The translations under genes and the position numbers were made by a program. From positions 5,738,001 to 5,802,000 of the forward strand of contig NZ_CP023747.1 of the NCBI RefSeq assembly GCF_008704995.1: a DNA stretch of 64,000 nt, read 5' to 3'. Source of the stretch: Streptomyces nodosus. GTDB lineage: Bacteria; Actinomycetota; Actinomycetes; Streptomycetales; Streptomycetaceae. The notes beneath the pieces were generated by a model. The model saw only the letters and a list, made by a program, of their open reading frames with translations. It was not told the DNA's origin and made no database searches. Shown in pieces: positions 22,091 through 34,827 of this stretch. Numbering within the stretch: the first letter of the stretch is position 1; each line of letters begins with the position of its first letter.

Positions 22091-22208
22091 TCCGCGCCCC
22101 GTCACCGGCGGGGCCCGGGCGCGGACCGGGCGGGGCGCGGACGGTCGGATCCGTACGGGTCAGGGCGATCGAAGGGTGAAGGTGCGTCCGAATGGTCAGG
22201 ATGGAGGC

Positions 22209-23447
22209 ATGGGATTCCATGTCGACTCCGAGGTCGGCCGCCTGCGCCGCGTCATCCTGCACCGGCCGGATCTCGAACTGAAAAGGCTCACCCCCAGCAA
22301 CAAGGACGCCCTGCTCTTCGACGATGTGCTGTGGGTGCGCCGGGCGCGCGCGGAGCACGACGGGTTCGCCGATGTGCTGCGCGACCGCGGGGTCGTCGTC
22401 CATCTCTTCGGCGATCTGCTGACCGAGGCGCTGGAGATCGCGGCCGCCCGGTCCCTGGTCCTGGGCCGGGTCTTCGACGAGAAGGAGTACGGGCCGCTCG
22501 CCACCGATCACCTCCGTGCCGCCTTCGAGGCGCTGCCCTCGCCCGAGCTGGCCGAGGCCCTGGTCGGCGGCATGACCAAGCGGGAGTTCCTGGACGCCCA
22601 TCCCGAGCCGACCTCCGTGCGGTTCCATGCGATGGAGCTCGACGACTTCCTGCTGCGGCCCCTCCCCAACCACCTCTTCACCCGCGACACCTCCGCCTGG
22701 ATCTACGACGGCGTCTCCATCAACGCCATGCGCTGGCCCGCGCGGCAGCGCGAGACCGTCCACTTCGAGGCGATCTACCGGCACCACCCGCTGTTCCGGG
22801 ACGAGGACTTCCAGGTCTGGTCCGAGGGGCAGTCGGACTATCCGTCCACCATCGAAGGCGGTGATGTGCTGGTCATCGGCAGCGGTGCGGTGCTGATCGG
22901 GATGAGCGAGCGGACCACCCCCCAGGCCGTGGAGATGCTCGCCCACAAGCTCTTCGCGGCCGGCTCGGCGCGGACCATCGTGGCGCTCGACATGCCCAAG
23001 CGGCGCGCCCTGATGCACCTCGACACCGTGATGACCATGGTCGACGGTGACACCTTCACCCAGTACGCGGGGCTCGGCATGCTCCGCTCGTACACCATCG
23101 AGCCCGGGTCGGGCGACAAGGAGCTGAAGGTCACCGACCATCCGCCGGAGCATATGCACCGGGCGATCGCCGCGGCGCTCGGCCTCAGCGAGATCCGTGT
23201 GCTCACCGCCACCCAGGATGTGCACGCGGCCGAGCGGGAGCAGTGGGACGACGGATGCAACGTCCTCGCGGTCGAGCCCGGTGTGGTGATCGCCTATGAA
23301 CGCAACGCCACCACCAACACCCATCTGCGGAGACAGGGGATCGAGGTCATCGAGATCCCTGGGAGCGAGCTGGGGCGGGGGAGGGGCGGGCCCCGGTGCA
23401 TGAGCTGCCCGGTGGAGCGGGACGCGATCCCGGTGCTCTCCGGGTGA
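22209..23447 (+). CDS. arcA: Arginine deiminase
   Basis: A 412-residue cytoplasmic enzyme that hydrolyses L-arginine to citrulline and ammonia. Guanidino-modifying fold motifs are present: substrate-binding [16 protein letters not shown] near 215, the catalytic [10 protein letters not shown] near 269 and a nucleophilic Cys in GGPRCMSC near residue 397. Length is normal for ADI (about 410). GGATGGAGGC lies before the ATG at 22209. It is followed by an ornithine carbamoyltransferase and an APC permease, which completes uptake and two steps of the arginine deiminase route; no carbamate kinase gene is seen nearby. Confidence 0.93.
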
Positions 23448-26585: not shown

Positions 26586-26850
26586 GGCGCAGGTCGTCCT
26601 GCTTTCAAACAAGAGGCATGGTACGGCCCGCCCTCTTCGGGGCCGTCGGCGGGCTTCCCCCGGGAACTCCGTCGGCCCCGGCACCCGGTTGCCTACCCCG
26701 GACGGCGCCCCCGCCCCCGCTCCGGTGCCTGTCGTTACCGGTCCGTCGACGAGGTGTGACATGCCTGCGGGCCGCCGCCCCCGGCGCGTCCAGCCCCCGC
26801 CACCGGCGCGCCCCTGCGGGGCGTACGCACCCGCACTCTATCGCGTACTC

Positions 26851-26864
26851 GTGACGACAGTCAC
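26851..26864. promoter_or_regulatory. GTGACGACAGTCAC operator candidate before the ECH gene
   Basis: GTGAC-gaca-GTCAC is an inverted repeat in the 347-base gap ahead of the enoyl-CoA hydratase gene. Its first 13 bases recur exactly at 33168-33180, before the acyl-CoA dehydrogenase gene of the same cluster. It may be the site of the PaaX-type regulator at 30158-31012 (inference). Confidence 0.55.
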
Positions 26865-26932
26865 AGATAGGTGATAACTTCAATCGCAGCGGCACCGCCG
26901 ACCGTCGCCCCCGTCCGAGGAGGCCGTACGTC

Positions 26933-27760
26933 ATGAGTCCCTTCACCGGATCCGCCGCCCGCACCTCCGAGTGGCGTCACCTCAGATGCGATCGCGCCGA
27001 CGGGATCGCGACGGTCACCCTGGCCCGCCCCGAGAAACTCAACGCGCTCACCTTCGGCGCCTACGCCGATCTGCGCGATCTGCTCGCCGAGCTGTCCCGG
27101 GAGAGAGCCGTACGGGCCCTGGTGCTGGGCGGCGAGGGCCGGGGCTTCTGCTCGGGCGGCGATGTCGACGAGATCATCGGCGCCACCCTCGCCATGGACA
27201 CCGCCCAGCTGCTCGACTTCAACCGGATGACCGGGCAGGTCGTACGGGCCCTGCGGGAGTGCCCCTTCCCGGTGATCGCCGCCGTGCACGGGGTGGCCGC
27301 GGGCGCGGGCGCGGTCCTCGCGCTGGCCGCGGACTTCCGGGTGGCGGACGCCTCGGCCCGCTTCGCCTTCCTGTTCACCCGGGTCGGCCTCTCCGGAGGC
27401 GACATGGGCGCTGCCTATCTGCTCCCCAGGGTCGTCGGGCTCGGCCATGCGACCAGGCTGCTGATGCTCGGCGAGCCGGTGCGCGCCCCCGAGGCCGAGC
27501 GGATCGGGCTGATCAGCGAGTCGGCCGAGGAGGGCCGGGTCGACGAGGCGGCCCGGGCGCTGGCCCGCCGGCTCGCCGACGGCCCGGCGCTCGCCCACGC
27601 CCAGACGAAGGCCCTGCTCACGGCCGAGCTGGACATGCCGCTCGCCGCCTCCGTCGAGCTGGACGCCTCGACCCAGGCGCTGCTGATGAACGGCGAGGAC
27701 TACGCGGAGTTCCACGCCGCCTTCACCGAGCGGCGGTCTCCGAAATGGCAGGGGAAGTAG
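26933..27760 (+). CDS. Enoyl-CoA hydratase/isomerase family protein
   Basis: A 275-residue crotonase-fold enzyme. The oxyanion-hole motif GRGFCSGGDVDE and the second one HGVAAGAGAVLALAADFRVA are present; the FTRVGLSGGDMGAAYLLPRVVG block is typical of the group. It would hydrate or hydrolyse a ring-derived CoA thioester. GAGGAGG precedes the ATG at 26933. The next gene, a bifunctional monooxygenase/reductase, begins three bases after its stop, so both are co-transcribed. Confidence 0.87.
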   Translation: MSPFTGSAARTSEWRHLRCDRADGIATVTLARPEKLNALTFGAYADLRDLLAELSRERAVRALVLGGEGRGFCSGGDVDEIIGATLAMDTAQLLDFNRMTGQVVRALRECPFPVIAAVHGVAAGAGAVLALAADFRVADASARFAFLFTRVGLSGGDMGAAYLLPRVVGLGHATRLLMLGEPVRAPEAERIGLISESAEEGRVDEAARALARRLADGPALAHAQTKALLTAELDMPLAASVELDASTQALLMNGEDYAEFHAAFTERRSPKWQGK

Positions 27761-27762
27761 CC

Positions 27763-30117
27763 ATGGAGGCCAAGGACCGGGCGTGGGTCCGGACTCCGCG
27801 GGTCGCCGTGATCGGCGGGGGCCCCGGCGGTCTGTACGCCGCCGCCCTCCTCAAGCGCCTCGACCCGTCCCGTGAGATCACCGTCTGGGAGCGCAACGCC
27901 CCCGACGACACCTTCGGCTTCGGGGTGGTGCTGTCCGACGAGACCCTCGGTGGGATCGCCCACGCCGACCCGGTCGTCCATGCGGCGCTCCAGGACGAGT
28001 TCGTGCGCTGGGACGACATCGACATCGTGCACCGGGGCGAGCGGCACACCTCCGGCGGCCATGGCTTCGCCGCGCTCGGCAGACGCCGGCTGCTGGCGGT
28101 CCTGCACGAGCGCTGCCGTTCGCTCGGCGTCGAGCTGCGCTTCGGCACCGAGGCCCCGCACCCGGACCGGCTCAGCCAGTCGTACGACCTGGTGATCGCC
28201 GCCGACGGGGTGCACAGCACCACCCGCGAGGCCGGTGCCGAGGTGTTCCGGCCCACGGTCCGGGAGCACCGCTGCCGTTACATCTGGCTCGCCGCCGACT
28301 TCGCCTTCGACGCCTTCCGCTTCGAGATCGCCGAGACCGAGTACGGCGTGATGCAACTGCACGGCTACCCGTACTCCCGCCCCTCGCCCGACCCCCTCCC
28401 CGCTTCGGTTCCCGCCGGGCCGTCCGGCCGACCCGGCGCCTCCACGGTGATCGTGGAGATGCGCGAGGAGGTCTGGCGGGCGGCCGGGTTCGCGGACATG
28501 GAGACCGCGGAAAGCGTCGAGCGATGCGCCAAGATCTTCACGGAGGCGCTCGGCGGGCGACCCCTGCGCTCCCGCAACTCCGCCTGGACCACCTTCCGCA
28601 CGGTCGTCAACGAACGCTGGTCGCACGGCAATCTGGTGCTGCTCGGCGACGCCGCGCACACCGCGCACTTCTCCATCGGCTCCGGCACCAAACTGGCCAT
28701 GGAGGACGCGCTGGCCCTGGCCGCCTGCTTGGAGGAGCACACCACACTGCCGGAGGCCCTGACCGCCTACGAGGAGGAGCGGCGCCCGGTCGTCGCCTCC
28801 ACCCAACGCGCGGCCCGGGCCAGCCTGGAGTGGTTCGAGAACCTCGGGCTCCATGTCGGCCGGCCCGCCCGGCAGTTCGCCTTCGACCTGCTCACCCGCA
28901 GCCGCCGGGTCACCCACGACAATCTTCGACTGCGTGACCCGCACTTCACCGAGGCCGTGGAGCGAGACTTCGGCTGCCCGCCCGGCACACCCCCGATGTT
29001 CACCCCCTTCCGGCTGCGCGGACTGACCCTGCGCAACCGGGTCGTGGTCTCCCCGATGGACATGTACTCGGCCGAGGACGGGGTCCCGGGCGACTTCCAC
29101 CTGGTCCACCTGGGCGCACGGGCGCTCGGCGGAGCCGGCCTGGTGATGACCGAGATGGTGTGTGTGAGCCCCGAGGGCCGGATCACTCCCGGCTGCGCCG
29201 GGCTCTGGACCGGCGATCAGACGCAGGCCTGGCGGCGGATCACCGACTTCGTGCACACCCGGGCACCGGGCGTCGCGATCGGCGTACAGCTCGGGCACAG
29301 CGGCCGCAAGGGCTCCACCCGACGGATGTGGGAGGGCATGGACGAGCCCCTGGAGGAGGGCAACTGGGGTCTTGTGGCCGCCTCCCCGATCCCGTACAGA
29401 CCCGGGAGTCAACAGCCCCGCGAGCTGTCCCGCGCCCAGCTGACCGATATCCGCGAACAGTTCATGGCCGCCGCCTGGCGCGCCGTACGCGGCGGCTTCG
29501 ATCTGCTCGAACTCCACTGCGCCCACGGCTATCTGCTCTCCGGCTTCCTCTCACCGCTCACCAACCGGCGGACCGACGCCTACGGCGGCACACTCGACAA
29601 CCGGCTGCGATACCCGCTGGAGGTCTTCGACGCCGTACGGTCGGTGTGGCCCGAGGAACGGCCCCTGACGGTAAGGATCTCCGCCACCGACTGGGCCGAG
29701 GGCGGCACCACCGCGGAGGACGCCGTGGAGATCGCCCGAGCCTTCGCCGCGCACGGCGCCGACGCCATCGATGTGTCCACCGGGCAGGTGGTGGCCGAGG
29801 AGCGGCCGGAGTTCGGGCGCTCCTACCAGACGCCCTACGCCGAGCGGATCCGGCAGGAGATCGGCATCCCGGTGATCGCGGTGGGCGCCATCTCGTCCTG
29901 GGACGACGTCAACTCGCTGATCCTGGCCGGGCGTGCGGATCTGTGCGCGCTGGCCCGGCCGCATCTCTACGACCCCCACTGGACGCTGCACGCGGCGGCC
30001 GAGCAGGGGTACACCGGGTCCGCGGCAGTGTGGCCGGAGCCCTACCGGGCGGGCAGCCGACGCCCCCCGACGGGCCGCACCGATGCCCCCAGACCCCGCC
30101 TCACCCTGGGCCGTTGA
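27763..30117 (+). CDS. Bifunctional 2-aminobenzoyl-CoA (or salicylyl-CoA) monooxygenase/reductase
   Basis: A 784-residue fusion. Residues 1-400 form a flavin monooxygenase: FAD motif IGGGPGGLYAAALL near 15, and GDAAHTAHFSIGSG near 295. Residues 410-775 form an old-yellow-enzyme domain: FTPFRLRGLTLRNRVVVSPM, then HCAHGYLLSGFLSP near 585 and NRRTDAYGG. The same fusion in Azoarcus evansii hydroxylates and then reduces 2-aminobenzoyl-CoA without oxygenolytic ring cleavage; similar proteins are often labelled salicylyl-CoA 5-hydroxylase. The absence of a gentisate dioxygenase and the presence of acyl-CoA dehydrogenase and hydratase genes favour the 2-aminobenzoyl-CoA role. GGGGAAG precedes the ATG. 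Confidence 0.88.
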   Translation: MEAKDRAWVRTPRVAVIGGGPGGLYAAALLKRLDPSREITVWERNAPDDTFGFGVVLSDETLGGIAHADPVVHAALQDEFVRWDDIDIVHRGERHTSGGHGFAALGRRRLLAVLHERCRSLGVELRFGTEAPHPDRLSQSYDLVIAADGVHSTTREAGAEVFRPTVREHRCRYIWLAADFAFDAFRFEIAETEYGVMQLHGYPYSRPSPDPLPASVPAGPSGRPGASTVIVEMREEVWRAAGFADMETAESVERCAKIFTEALGGRPLRSRNSAWTTFRTVVNERWSHGNLVLLGDAAHTAHFSIGSGTKLAMEDALALAACLEEHTTLPEALTAYEEERRPVVASTQRAARASLEWFENLGLHVGRPARQFAFDLLTRSRRVTHDNLRLRDPHFTEAVERDFGCPPGTPPMFTPFRLRGLTLRNRVVVSPMDMYSAEDGVPGDFHLVHLGARALGGAGLVMTEMVCVSPEGRITPGCAGLWTGDQTQAWRRITDFVHTRAPGVAIGVQLGHSGRKGSTRRMWEGMDEPLEEGNWGLVAASPIPYRPGSQQPRELSRAQLTDIREQFMAAAWRAVRGGFDLLELHCAHGYLLSGFLSPLTNRRTDAYGGTLDNRLRYPLEVFDAVRSVWPEERPLTVRISATDWAEGGTTAEDAVEIARAFAAHGADAIDVSTGQVVAEERPEFGRSYQTPYAERIRQEIGIPVIAVGAISSWDDVNSLILAGRADLCALARPHLYDPHWTLHAAAEQGYTGSAAVWPEPYRAGSRRPPTGRTDAPRPRLTLGR

Positions 30118-30157
30118 ACCGCGCCGTGCCGTCCGCCGGGCCCGCCCCACGAGGACG

Positions 30158-31012
30158 TCAGGGCTCGGCCGCGGTCTCCGGGGCAGGGGTCCGGCCCGGC
30201 TCGCCCTCCACAAAGACCGCCCCCGCGTCCCGCAACCGCTCGTGCAGCGCCCGGAAGACGGCGGCCGAGCGCACCCCCGGCCAGTCGGAGGGGAGCAGCT
30301 CGGCGGGCAACCCCGGGTCTGCGTAAGGAAGATGGCGCCAGGAGTCCAGGGCGAGCAGATAGTCGTGGTACGCCTCCTCCGGAGGGGTGTCCGCACGGGC
30401 CTCCCAGGCCCGCAGCACGGGTGCCTGACGATCCAGGAACTCCTCGTGCTGGGCCGCGATCGCCGCCAGGTCCCACCAGCGCGTCGCCGCCTCCGCGGTG
30501 GCCGCGAAACCGAGGTGCTCCCCCCGGAAGAAGTCCACATAGGGGTCCAGGCGCAGCCGGTGCAGGGTGTGCCGGGTCTCCTCGTACAGCCGTGCGGGGG
30601 CGATCCACACCCCGGGGGCCGCCGTGCCGAAGCCGAGACCCGCCAGCCGGGAGCGCAGCAGATGCCGCTTGTGCCGCTCCGACTCCGGCACCGAGAACAC
30701 CGCGAGCACCCAGCCCTCGTCCCCCGGCGGAGCCTTCGCGTACACCCGCAGATCGCCGTCGTCGAGCAGCTGCCGCGCGTCCGGCGACAGCGCATATCCG
30801 GCCGCGCCCTGCGCCGTGCGGGCCGGCAGCAGCAGACCGCGCCGCTTCAGCCGTGACACCGAGGAGCGCACCGAGGGCGCGTCCACGCCGACCGCGCCCA
30901 GCAGCCTGATCAGCTCGGCCACAGGCACCGGGCCTGGGGCGAAGCGGCCGTAGGCGCCGTAGAACGTGACGATGAGGGATCGGGGAACGGGCTGATCGGA
31001 CACGTCGATCAC
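30158..31012 (-). CDS. PaaX-family transcriptional regulator
   Basis: A 284-residue GntR-like winged-helix repressor. The N-terminal PaaX domain (residues 1-85; SLIVTFYGAYGRF, SSVSRLKRRGLLLP) binds DNA; the C-terminal PaaX_C part senses an aryl-CoA thioester (FSVPESERHKRHLLRSRLAGLGFG, then the EEFL segment). PaaX represses phenylacetate genes until phenylacetyl-CoA appears; here the likely ligand is 2-aminobenzoyl-CoA or a relative. It sits between the monooxygenase and CoA ligase genes. Start is GTG 31012; GTG 31003 has a better ribosome site (AGAGTG). Its target may be the 13-base motif found at 26851 and 33168. Confidence 0.87.
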   Translation of the reverse strand: MIDVSDQPVPRSLIVTFYGAYGRFAPGPVPVAELIRLLGAVGVDAPSVRSSVSRLKRRGLLLPARTAQGAAGYALSPDARQLLDDGDLRVYAKAPPGDEGWVLAVFSVPESERHKRHLLRSRLAGLGFGTAAPGVWIAPARLYEETRHTLHRLRLDPYVDFFRGEHLGFAATAEAATRWWDLAAIAAQHEEFLDRQAPVLRAWEARADTPPEEAYHDYLLALDSWRHLPYADPGLPAELLPSDWPGVRSAAVFRALHERLRDAGAVFVEGEPGRTPAPETAAEP

Positions 31013-31027
31013 TCTAATTCGTCCGCG

Positions 31028-33115
31028 TCAATCATGATCACTTTCTGCGGATACGGAGTCGACTTCGAGACAGAGGCCCGTGCCGTCGTCCGGGTGTCCG
31101 TCCCCGGCGTGGTGCGTACGCAGCCGGAAGCGCTGGAGCTTGCCGGTCGCCGTGCGCGGCAGCGCGTCCACGAAGACGAACTCGCGCGGGCACTTGAACG
31201 GCACCAACTCGGACGTCAGAAACGCCCGCAGGGCCTCCGGATCCCGGGGCGCGCCCGCCCTGAGGACCGTGTACGCCACCGCGATCTGTCCGCGCGCCTC
31301 GTCGGGCCGCCCCACCACCGCCGTCTCCAGCACATCGGGATGGCGCAGCAGGGCGTCCTCGACCTCGGGCCCGGCGATGTTGTACCCGGCCGAGACGATC
31401 ATGTCGTCGGCGCGAGCGACAAAGCGGAACCAGCCGTCGGGCTCGCGGACATAGGTGTCGCCGGTGATGTTCCAGCCGTCCCGGACGTACTCCCGCTGCC
31501 GGGGGTCGGCGAGATAGCGGCAGCCCACCGGTCCGCGCACCGCGAGCAGTCCGGGCTCGCCGTCGGGCAGGGGTGTGCCGTCGGCGTCCTGCACACGCGC
31601 CTGCCACCCCGGTACCGGAACACCCGTGGTCCCGGGGCGGATCCGGTCGTCCGCGGCGGAGATGAAGATGTGCAGCAGCTCGGTGGCGCCGATGCCGTTG
31701 ATGATGCGCAGCCCGGTGCGCCGGTGCCAGGCCCGCCAGGTCGCGGCGGACAGGTTCTCGCCGGCCGACACACAGCGCCGCAGCGAGGTGATGTCGTACC
31801 CGTCGAGTTCGTTCAGCATCGTGCGATAGGCGGTGGGCGCGGTGAACAGCACGGAGACCCGGTGCTCGGCGATCGCCGGCAACAGCTGCCTGGGCCCCGC
31901 CTGTTCGAGCAGCAGAGCGCTGGCGCCGGCCCGCAACGGGAAGACGACCAGGCCGCCGAGACCGAAGGTGAAGCCGAGCGGGGGACTGCCCGCGAAGACG
32001 TCGTCGGGGCGCGGTTCCAGAACGTGCCGGGAGAAGGTGTCCGCGACGGCGAGCAGATCGCGGTGGAAGTGGACACACCCCTTGGGGCGGCCCGTGGTGC
32101 CCGAGGTGAACGCGATCAGCGCCACATCGTCGGCCGCCGTGTCCACGGCCGGGTACGGCTCCTCGGGCGTCGGCAGGTGCAGCAGATCGCCGGGGGAGTC
32201 GCCGCCGTAGGGGGTGACGCGCAATCCGGGTACGCCGGCCCCCGCCAGGTCGTCGACCGCGCGGGCGTCGCAGAGGGCGTGACCCACCCGGGCGATCTCG
32301 CAGATGGTGCGCAGCTCGTGCGGGCGCTGCTGGGCCAGCACGGTGACAGCCACCGCACCCGCCTTCAGCACCGCGAGCCAGCAGGCGGCCAGCCAGGGGG
32401 TGGTGGGGCCGCGCAGCAGGACACGGTTTCCGGGGACGACGCCCAGATGCGAGGTGAGGGCGTGCGCGATCCGGTCCACCTGGGTGCGGAGCCGCCCATA
32501 GGTCCAGGTGCCGCCGTCCGGCGTACGGAAAGCGGGACGCTCGGGGGCGGTGCGGGCGAGTAATTCGACGGCGGCGTTGAGCCGTTCGGGGTAGCGCAAC
32601 TCGGGCAGCCCGAAGAGGAGCTCGGGCCACTGCTCGCGGGGCGGGAGATGGTCGCGGGCGAAGGTGTCCTGGTGGGCGGTGCGGGTGGGCTCGTCGGCGG
32701 GCGGAGGGGGTGTCGCCGTATCGGCGGGCCGCTGTCCGTCGGCCGTGCCGGCGGGCTGTCGTCCTTCCGCCGTGCCGGCGGGCCGTTGTTCTTCTGCCGT
32801 GCTGACGGGTTGTTGTTCGTCCGCTGTGTCGGCGGGCTGTGGTCCTTCCGCCGTGCTGGCGGGCTGTGGTCCTTCCGCCGTGCCGGCGGGCTGTTGTTCC
32901 TCCGCTGTGCCGGCGGGCTGTCGTCCTTCCGCCGTGCTGGCGTGCCGGGGCCCGTCTGCCGCTCCGGACCGTGGAGGCGCCGGTGCTGCGCCGGGCCGTC
33001 GGGGCGCCGGTGCCGGGTCGGCCGTGGGAGGAGTGGGTGCCGCCCCGGCCGGGGGCGACGGGTCGGCGCTCGCGCGTGCGGCGTCCGTGGCGCCGGTGGC
33101 GTCCCTCGGGTCCAT
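31028..33115 (-). CDS. Benzoate/2-aminobenzoate-CoA ligase with N-terminal repeat extension
   Basis: A 695-residue acyl-AMP-forming CoA ligase. The usual enzyme begins near residue 148 (TFARDHLPPREQWPELL, typical of aryl-CoA ligases). AMP-binding motif TSGTTGRPKG is near 340 and the catalytic lysine in RTATGKLQ near 657. It would activate 2-aminobenzoate with ATP and CoA as the first step of the cluster. Ahead of the enzyme is a 147-residue Pro/Ala/Gln-rich extension with eight 9-residue repeats (consensus TAEGRQPAG). No start codon is available close to the conserved domain, so the ATG at 33115, with AAGGGGG upstream, is needed. This extension is odd for the family. Confidence 0.87.
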   Translation of the reverse strand: MDPRDATGATDAARASADPSPPAGAAPTPPTADPAPAPRRPGAAPAPPRSGAADGPRHASTAEGRQPAGTAEEQQPAGTAEGPQPASTAEGPQPADTADEQQPVSTAEEQRPAGTAEGRQPAGTADGQRPADTATPPPPADEPTRTAHQDTFARDHLPPREQWPELLFGLPELRYPERLNAAVELLARTAPERPAFRTPDGGTWTYGRLRTQVDRIAHALTSHLGVVPGNRVLLRGPTTPWLAACWLAVLKAGAVAVTVLAQQRPHELRTICEIARVGHALCDARAVDDLAGAGVPGLRVTPYGGDSPGDLLHLPTPEEPYPAVDTAADDVALIAFTSGTTGRPKGCVHFHRDLLAVADTFSRHVLEPRPDDVFAGSPPLGFTFGLGGLVVFPLRAGASALLLEQAGPRQLLPAIAEHRVSVLFTAPTAYRTMLNELDGYDITSLRRCVSAGENLSAATWRAWHRRTGLRIINGIGATELLHIFISAADDRIRPGTTGVPVPGWQARVQDADGTPLPDGEPGLLAVRGPVGCRYLADPRQREYVRDGWNITGDTYVREPDGWFRFVARADDMIVSAGYNIAGPEVEDALLRHPDVLETAVVGRPDEARGQIAVAYTVLRAGAPRDPEALRAFLTSELVPFKCPREFVFVDALPRTATGKLQRFRLRTHHAGDGHPDDGTGLCLEVDSVSAESDHD
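32720..32935 (-). repeat. Eight 27-base coding repeats in the CoA ligase
   Basis: Eight consecutive copies of a 27-base unit encode TAEGRQPAG-type nonapeptides (variants TAEEQQPAG, TAEGPQPAS, TADEQQPVS, TADGQRPAD). The frame is kept throughout. The spread of variants argues for some age, and the unit length for growth by slippage or unequal crossover. Confidence 0.85.
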
Positions 33116-33167
33116 GGCGGTTCGCCCCCTTGTCGTGGTGGGCTCGCGCATCGAGCGTATCGTCTTG

Positions 33168-33180
33168 GTGACGACAGTCA
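33168..33180. promoter_or_regulatory. Second copy of the GTGACGACAGTCA motif
   Basis: An exact 13-base match to the site at 26851-26863. It lies in the 165-base divergent gap between the CoA ligase (start 33115) and acyl-CoA dehydrogenase (start 33281) genes, a fitting place for a common operator. Confidence 0.55.
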
Positions 33181-33280
33181 ATGCTCCGCGATACGGTCGA
33201 GTGAAGGGCTCGTCCGGCCCGGGTTCGCCGGGTGCGTTCCGGGGATCCCCGGGGACGTCGTCAGGGAGAGAGGACCGGCA

Positions 33281-34408
33281 ATGACCGCATTCTCGCTCGA
33301 TCCCGCACATATCGCCTGGTGTGCGGAGCTGCGCAGGGCCGCCGAGCAGCGCCTGCACCCGCTCGCGGAGAAGGGCGAACCGGGCCGTGTCAACCGCGCA
33401 CTGGTCGTCGAACTCGGCCGACTCGGACTCCTCGACCGCCTGTTCACCTCCGGCGCCCTCGATCTCTGCCTGATGCGGGAGTCCCTGGCCTACGCCTGCA
33501 CCGAGGCGGAGACGGCGCTCGCCCTGCAAGGTCTCGGCGCCCATCCGGTGCACGCCCACGGCACCGAGGCCCAGCGCGCCCGCTGGCTCCCCGGTGTCCG
33601 CGCCGGCACCACGGTGGCGGCCTTCGCCCTGACCGAGCCGGACGCGGGCTCGGACGCGGCGGCGCTGTCGCTCACGGCGACCCCGGATTCCCCGTCCGGC
33701 TGGCGGCTCACCGGTGAGAAATGCTGGATCTCCAACGCCCCCGAGGCCGACTTCTACACCGTCTTCGCCCGCACCGCCCCCGAGGCCGGCCCCCGTGGCG
33801 TGACCGCTTTCCTCGTCCCCGCCGACCGCCCCGGGCTGTCCGGAGCCCCGCTCGAGATGCTCTCCGCGCACCCCATCGGCAGGCTGGACCTCGACGCGGT
33901 GCCGGTGACCGAGGACGACGTCCTCGGGGAGCCCGACCGCGGCTTCCGGGTCGCCATGGGCACCCTCAACCGCTTCCGGCCCAGCGTCGGCGCCTTCGCG
34001 GTCGGCATGGCGCAGGCGGCCCTGGACGCGACCCTCGCCCATACGGCCCGACGGGACGCCTTCGGCGGCAAGTTGAAGGACCTCCAGGCCGTCTCCCACC
34101 AGGTCGCGGAGATGGCCCTGCGCACCGAGGCCGCCCGCCTCCTGGTCCATGCGGCGGCGACGGCGTACGACGAGGGCGCCCCCGATGTGCCGCTGCGGGC
34201 CGCCATGGCGAAACTGCTCGCCACCGAGACCGCGCAGTATGTCGTCGACACGGCCGTCCAGTTGCACGGCGCCCGCGCCCTGCGCCGCGGCCACCTCCTC
34301 GAACACCTCTACCGAGAGGTGCGCGCGCCCCGGATCTACGAGGGCGCCAGCGAGGTCCAGCGCGGCATCATCGCCAAGGAGTTGTACGCCACCGTGGAGG
34401 CACCGTGA
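33281..34408 (+). CDS. Acyl-CoA dehydrogenase family protein
   Basis: A 375-residue flavoprotein dehydrogenase. Motifs include ALTEPDAGSDAA and KCWISNAPEADFY (FAD site), and the catalytic base region RIYEGASEVQRGIIAKEL near the C-terminus. It likely oxidises a cyclic or ring-opened acyl-CoA made by the monooxygenase/reductase. GAGAGAGGA precedes the ATG at 33281. Its stop overlaps the next gene's GTG start (GTGA), so it is coupled to a RidA protein. It is divergent from the CoA ligase. Confidence 0.87.
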   Translation: MTAFSLDPAHIAWCAELRRAAEQRLHPLAEKGEPGRVNRALVVELGRLGLLDRLFTSGALDLCLMRESLAYACTEAETALALQGLGAHPVHAHGTEAQRARWLPGVRAGTTVAAFALTEPDAGSDAAALSLTATPDSPSGWRLTGEKCWISNAPEADFYTVFARTAPEAGPRGVTAFLVPADRPGLSGAPLEMLSAHPIGRLDLDAVPVTEDDVLGEPDRGFRVAMGTLNRFRPSVGAFAVGMAQAALDATLAHTARRDAFGGKLKDLQAVSHQVAEMALRTEAARLLVHAAATAYDEGAPDVPLRAAMAKLLATETAQYVVDTAVQLHGARALRRGHLLEHLYREVRAPRIYEGASEVQRGIIAKELYATVEAP

Positions 34409-34827
34409 CCACCGAGCGCACCGACCCGCCCGCCCTCGCACGCGTCAACCCGCCGGCCCTCTCCCCGCCCACCGGTTTCTCGCACGCCGTGGTCGCCACC
34501 GGGTCACGGCTGCTGTTCCTGGCCGGCCAGACCGCCCTCGACCCGGAGGGAAAGGTGACCGGCGACTCCCTTCCCGCCCAGTTCGAAAGGGCGCTCGGCA
34601 ATCTGCTCACCGCCCTGCGGGCCGCCGGCGGCACCCCCGCCGACCTCGCCCGGGTCACCGTCTACGCCACCGATGTGGCCGACTACCGCACCCACGCACC
34701 CCAACTCGGCCGCATCTGGCGCAGGCTGGCCGGCCGCGACTACCCCGCGATGGCCGTCGTAGGCATCACCCGGCTCTGGGACGAGCAGGCCCTCGTGGAA
34801 CTGGACGGCTTCGCCGTGCTGCCCTGA
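34405..34827 (+). CDS. RidA-family enamine/imine deaminase
   Basis: A 140-residue protein of the RidA/YjgF family, which hydrolyses reactive enamines and imines to ketones and ammonia as a trimer. Family marks: FSHAVVATGSRLLFLAGQTALDP, the QFERALGNLLTALRAAGG helix, RVTVYATDVADY and GITRLWDEQALVELDG. The canonical arginine that binds the carboxylate is not at its usual place in the last block, so it may be a RidA subgroup rather than RidA itself. Being coupled to the acyl-CoA dehydrogenase gene, it could deaminate the enamine intermediate of 2-aminobenzoyl-CoA breakdown. Confidence 0.83.
   Translation: MTTERTDPPALARVNPPALSPPTGFSHAVVATGSRLLFLAGQTALDPEGKVTGDSLPAQFERALGNLLTALRAAGGTPADLARVTVYATDVADYRTHAPQLGRIWRRLAGRDYPAMAVVGITRLWDEQALVELDGFAVLP

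Follow-up and report, generated by a model that had tools for sequence, protein, structure and literature searches.

Two identical 13-mers in the analysed window (the whole stretch of 64,000 nucleotides, to which all positions without a locus label refer) are, judging from sequence, very probably core sequences of two operators for the PaaX-type regulator of the same catabolic cluster, which would act as a repressor and be released by a CoA thioester. We infer each element of this reading, namely the binding of PaaX, repression as its effect and the effector. The kind of system is already known, and the additions made here are a distal operator arm and a genus-wide description. A literature search on the regulation of this monooxygenase cluster found no paper. 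The result pairs a recognition helix with an operator for PaaX proteins, for which no structure of a DNA complex was known to a review of the family (PMC9493321).

Gene content of the cluster

The first operon of the cluster, on the plus strand, encodes an enoyl-CoA hydratase family protein (26933–27760; NF006107, 393 bits against a cut-off of 330) and a fused FAD monooxygenase/old-yellow-enzyme protein (27763–30117; Pfam FAD_binding_3 and Oxidored_FMN). The fused enzyme exceeds the NCBIfam cut-off for 'salicylyl-CoA 5-hydroxylase/oxidoreductase' (NF006101, 1210 bits against 1078), and fusion of a monooxygenase with an old yellow enzyme is the established layout of 2-aminobenzoyl-CoA monooxygenase/reductase. 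The minus strand carries the gene for an aryl-CoA ligase (31028–33115; AMP-binding domains; TIGR02262, the benzoate-CoA ligase family, below its cut-off) and that of the PaaX-type regulator (30158–31012, GTG start; Pfam PaaX, PaaX_M and PaaX_C). Beyond the ligase, the plus strand encodes an acyl-CoA dehydrogenase (33281–34408; Pfam Acyl-CoA_dh_N, _M and _1) and a RidA family protein of the enamine/imine deaminase type (34405–34827; Pfam PF01042, 61 bits). RidA suits an enamine intermediate, and an amino substrate of the cluster is likely. The initial annotation had paaX encoded between the two motif copies, which is correct as to position, but the gene does not stand apart: it comes 15 bp after the ligase gene and in the same orientation, and the second site therefore probably governs ligase–paaX as well as the dehydrogenase.

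The ligase has a long, repetitive N-terminal extension of about 150 residues, coded by 8.5 copies of a 27-bp tandem repeat (32714–33051); in other Streptomyces ligases the same region has a median of 14 residues. An arginine deiminase gene lies near the cluster (22152–23432) and is kept there in most Streptomyces loci.

The repeated motif in the genome

The 13-mer GTGACGACAGTCA occurs in exact form and on the same strand at 26851–26863 and 33168–33180, where a dinucleotide model of the window predicts 0.003 copies per 64 kb. Both places given in the initial annotation, before the hydratase operon and in the gap between ligase and dehydrogenase, were confirmed. The exact repeat is real, but the conserved unit is a 12-bp palindrome, TGAC-N4-GTCA, nested in a larger one, rather than the 13-mer; the leading G stands outside it because the base at this place varies among relatives (G, A or C). 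This core, TGACGACAGTCA, lies at 26852–26863 and 33169–33180 (no strand assigned). A genome-wide count, which had been proposed for the 13-mer, gave for this core exactly two copies in the 7,772,587 bases (one contig), both in this cluster, with no further exact copies; another 25 places in the genome match it with one base changed. Under the same model the genome would hold 0.94 copies of the 12-mer and 0.36 of the 13-mer by chance, and the latter figure leaves some room for an accidental repeat. Such an accident is refuted by conservation, since every relative retrieved keeps the motif at these two places, and we assign it a negligible probability. A genome-wide search for a wider regulon, using the extended pattern described below with up to three mismatches, found only the two cluster sites and one weak third place, and no site was found in the tryptophan dioxygenase region.

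Extent and conservation of the putative operators

Conservation was assessed in 80 Streptomyces loci found through the monooxygenase. TGAC-N4-GTCA was present before the hydratase gene in all 80 and in the ligase/dehydrogenase gap in all 68 loci covering ligase, PaaX and dehydrogenase, counts that are not independent, since the loci are related to one another. Control patterns (reversed or shuffled palindromes) were nearly absent from the same loci. The aligned Streptomyces sites share a conserved block, TATCGCG-N6-TGACGACAGTCA-N6-(G/C)(T/C)GATA, outside which conservation drops, and the drop is steeper for the hydratase site than for the ligase site. We read the putative operator unit as a 38-bp element, TATNNCG-N6-TGACNNNNGTCA-N6-CGNNATA, with the outer arm TATNNCG sitting 6 bp beyond the core, which makes the site longer than the core reported for the Arthrobacter regulator MeqR2 (see below). 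Operator 1 (TATCGCG-N6-TGACGACAGTCA-N6-GGTGATA, 26839–26876) has one mismatch to this pattern and is conserved in 82/82 aligned sites; operator 2 (CGTATCG-N6-TGACGACAGTCA-N6-CGCGATA, 33156–33193) has two mismatches and is conserved in 70/70 aligned sites. Neither is assigned a strand.

Promoter geometry and proposed mode of action

The promoters were recognised by conserved spacing alone; scanning the two promoter regions for the sigma-70 consensus gave no hit. For the hydratase–monooxygenase promoter (plus strand), a putative −35 element, GTGACG (26851–26856), lies inside the operator core and is followed by a putative −10 element, TAACTT (26875–26880); for the dehydrogenase–RidA promoter, the putative −10 element is TACGGT (33192–33197, plus strand). 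TAnnnT is found at the corresponding offset, +23 from the T of TGAC, in 99% of the hydratase sites and 97% of the dehydrogenase sites. The ligase–paaX promoter (minus strand) would combine a putative −35 element within the operator, TTGACT (33176–33181; present in 70/70 aligned sites), with a putative −10 element, TACGCT (33154–33159; TAnnnT at this offset in 70/70), and TTGACT is separated from TAnnnT by a 16-bp spacer in every one of these 70 sites. The fixed distance from TGAC to TAnnnT indicates that the core covers the −35 elements of all three promoters.

The same arrangement could be that of a strong housekeeping promoter only (−35 NTGACG or TTGACT, −10 TAnnnT), whose palindrome would come from divergent −35 elements sharing bases, with no specific regulator involved; in its favour, the half-sites of the core fall on −35 positions, and the arms facing a promoter fall on −10 elements. 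We regard this as improbable. Operator 1 is palindromic over the core and has a conserved distal arm (TATNNCG is matched in 80 of the 82 hydratase sites if one mismatch is allowed). Behind that arm, only 5% of the loci have TAnnnT in the opposite direction; the arm is thus kept on a side where there is no promoter to account for it. The 12-mer is rare in the genome, as a generic promoter would not be, and the core is seen again in other families and on the plasmid pAL1.

Under the preferred reading, repression by PaaX, the regulator would occupy the operators when substrate is lacking and block RNA polymerase at the hydratase–monooxygenase promoter, the dehydrogenase–RidA promoter and the promoter of its own ligase–paaX operon. 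The bound protein would lie over the −35 elements of the flanking promoters at the core half-sites and overlap the −10 elements at the promoter-side arms. The ligase would produce a CoA thioester, most likely 2-aminobenzoyl-CoA, which would bind PaaX and release it from the DNA; the pathway would then be induced, and paaX would regulate itself.

For the 38-bp element as a whole, we see about an even chance that it comprises four half-sites, with the arms about one helical turn off the core and contacted by PaaX, probably through a cooperatively bound second dimer. The architecture would then be common to MeqR2-type regulators across actinobacterial families, and core and arm together would cover both −35 and −10 at each promoter. 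A likeness of the arms to the TTCGYG elements of E. coli was seen and is too weak.

The PaaX protein and its relation to known regulators

The PaaX, PaaX_M and PaaX_C domains of the regulator scored 72.8, 89.6 and 91.8 bits against Pfam cut-offs of 24.8, 24 and 22, and its gene is the only one in the genome with PF07848 (PaaX HTH). The match to the PaaX equivalog TIGR02277 (NCBIfam) was full-length (E 1.1e-39) and, at 136.6 bits, remained well under the cut-off of 264.55, so the protein is not phenylacetate PaaX proper. The AF2 model (pLDDT 89) has a three-domain PaaX fold with a winged helix, and the closest structure in the PDB, that of E. coli PaaX (8a39), shares this fold (Foldseek E 4.9e-15, TM 0.79, 26% identity). 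The predicted recognition helix (residues 45–57, APSVRSSVSRLKR) contains VRSSVSRLKRR and is nearly invariant across Streptomyces clusters. E. coli PaaX, the phenylacetyl-CoA repressor, blocks RNA polymerase, responds to an aryl-CoA and has the operator TGATTC(N27)GAATCA (PMC9493321). That operator is without the TGAC-N4-GTCA core, and the recognition-helix stretch of the E. coli protein is VRTALFRLNKEG. A phenylacetate-type operator was rejected for the cluster, as neither site has TGATTC half-sites.

MeqR2 is reportedly a PaaX-type repressor that is released by anthraniloyl-CoA and whose operator, TGACGNNCGTcA, was published with EMSA data; the earlier remark that little is known of the sites of actinobacterial PaaX proteins should be qualified in this respect. 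MeqR2 is one of the two PaaX proteins of pAL1. The core TGACGACAGTCA at both cluster regions differs from this consensus by one mismatch, and the catabolic promoters and the regulator's own promoter both carry a MeqR2-like operator, the second site preceding ligase–paaX. On pAL1 (NC_009453, Arthrobacter sp. Rue61a), where two PaaX-related regulators share in the control of quinaldine degradation (PMC3534580), TGACGNNCGTCA occurs three times and TGACGATCGTAA once. The pattern is located between the upper-pathway operons (L009:4728 and 5134) and before one of the PaaX genes (25319), and a copy with one mismatch precedes the lower-pathway operon (L009:17609). Both pAL1 PaaX proteins have the helix VRSSVSRLKKR, against VRSSVSRLKRR here, at an overall identity of 39–40%. 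The plasmid and the Streptomyces cluster have in common a PaaX-type regulator beside a CoA ligase, a fused monooxygenase/reductase and RidA, whereas pAL1 has fumarylacetoacetate hydrolase, cupin and thioesterase genes where the Streptomyces cluster has the hydratase and the dehydrogenase. The central core bases are mostly GACA or GGCA in Streptomyces, compared with GNNC in the MeqR2 operator, and the outer arms stand out far less on pAL1 than in Streptomyces.

In three genomes of one genus, ligase and monooxygenase are accompanied by a PaaX with an altered helix, VRTAVFRLKQRG, and a genome-wide search of these three genomes found no operator. The original proposal of an operator candidate is strengthened by conservation at both promoters, by the overlap with predicted promoter elements, by the likeness of helix and motif to those of pAL1 and by the absence of the motif where the helix is changed. 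That the PaaX of the Streptomyces cluster would be a MeqR2-type repressor with a pair of operators is well supported by these comparisons.

Distribution in Streptomyces and other families

Among 296 Streptomyces genomes sampled, this PaaX is present in 277 and the monooxygenase in 263; the cluster is thus common, and the analysis offers a precise and testable operator for a widespread aromatic-acid route. Of the 19 genomes without PaaX, 18 also lack the monooxygenase, and in the one exception, with monooxygenase and no PaaX, the assembly is fragmented and the monooxygenase lies at the edge of a contig. In 199 Streptomyces genomes, the mean number of copies of TGACGRCAGTCA per genome was 2.77 with the monooxygenase versus 0.96 without it (0.63 and 0.22, respectively, for the reversed-pattern control). 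Operators were absent or decayed where the enzymes had been lost.

The extended operator was also found in other families of actinobacteria that share the enzymes and this type of helix; in some, it sits in front of a short-chain dehydrogenase gene heading the hydratase operon. A weight matrix built from the Streptomyces sites was applied to clusters of these families, the sites being chosen by the exact core alone (37 outside mapped genes). The arms ranked within the top 1% of the locus for 20 of the 37 and within the top 0.1% for 14, and several of the remaining sites fall in unrelated coding sequence. Only degenerate cores were seen, despite a VRS-type helix, in the distant loci L011, L014, L015, L144, L145, L147 and L152. 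At L136:2442, an exact core precedes a monooxygenase gene; the genome is fragmented, and no close PaaX was found in it.

Some genomes carry a solitary PaaX gene beside arginine deiminase and ornithine carbamoyltransferase genes. The solitary proteins of six loci (L166:9357–10187, L167, L168, L169, L170 and L171) are 74–85% identical, with the same helix and an intact reading frame; no catabolic cluster and no full operator were found nearby. Next to a solitary PaaX gene in two genomes (L191:6705 and L195:9126) lies a decayed operator, which makes the solitary loci look like remnants left after loss of the enzymes.

Some genomes have a solitary PaaX gene with the same helix and yet lack the motif, which would be compatible with the motif being the operator of another regulator, encoded elsewhere, while PaaX binds other DNA. 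PaaX and the cluster are inherited together, so their co-occurrence alone cannot single out PaaX as the reader of the motif. We nevertheless hold a regulator other than PaaX to be very unlikely, marginally more so than a mere promoter: in nearly all families it is PaaX that accompanies the cluster, the motif agrees with the operator reported for the homologous MeqR2, the motif is missing where the helix is altered (one genus, three genomes), and the solitary loci, two of them with decayed operators, resemble remnants of cluster loss.

Two further arrangements were seen in Streptomyces. In one genome a strong operator precedes PaaX directly, at a distance of about 70 bp and with no ligase between them (L193:4726), an arrangement that, read from the site's position, is one of putative direct autoregulation. 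A Streptomyces genome (G084) combines a solitary PaaX with a second, pAL1-like cluster that has its own PaaX and operator (L197:7255–14191).
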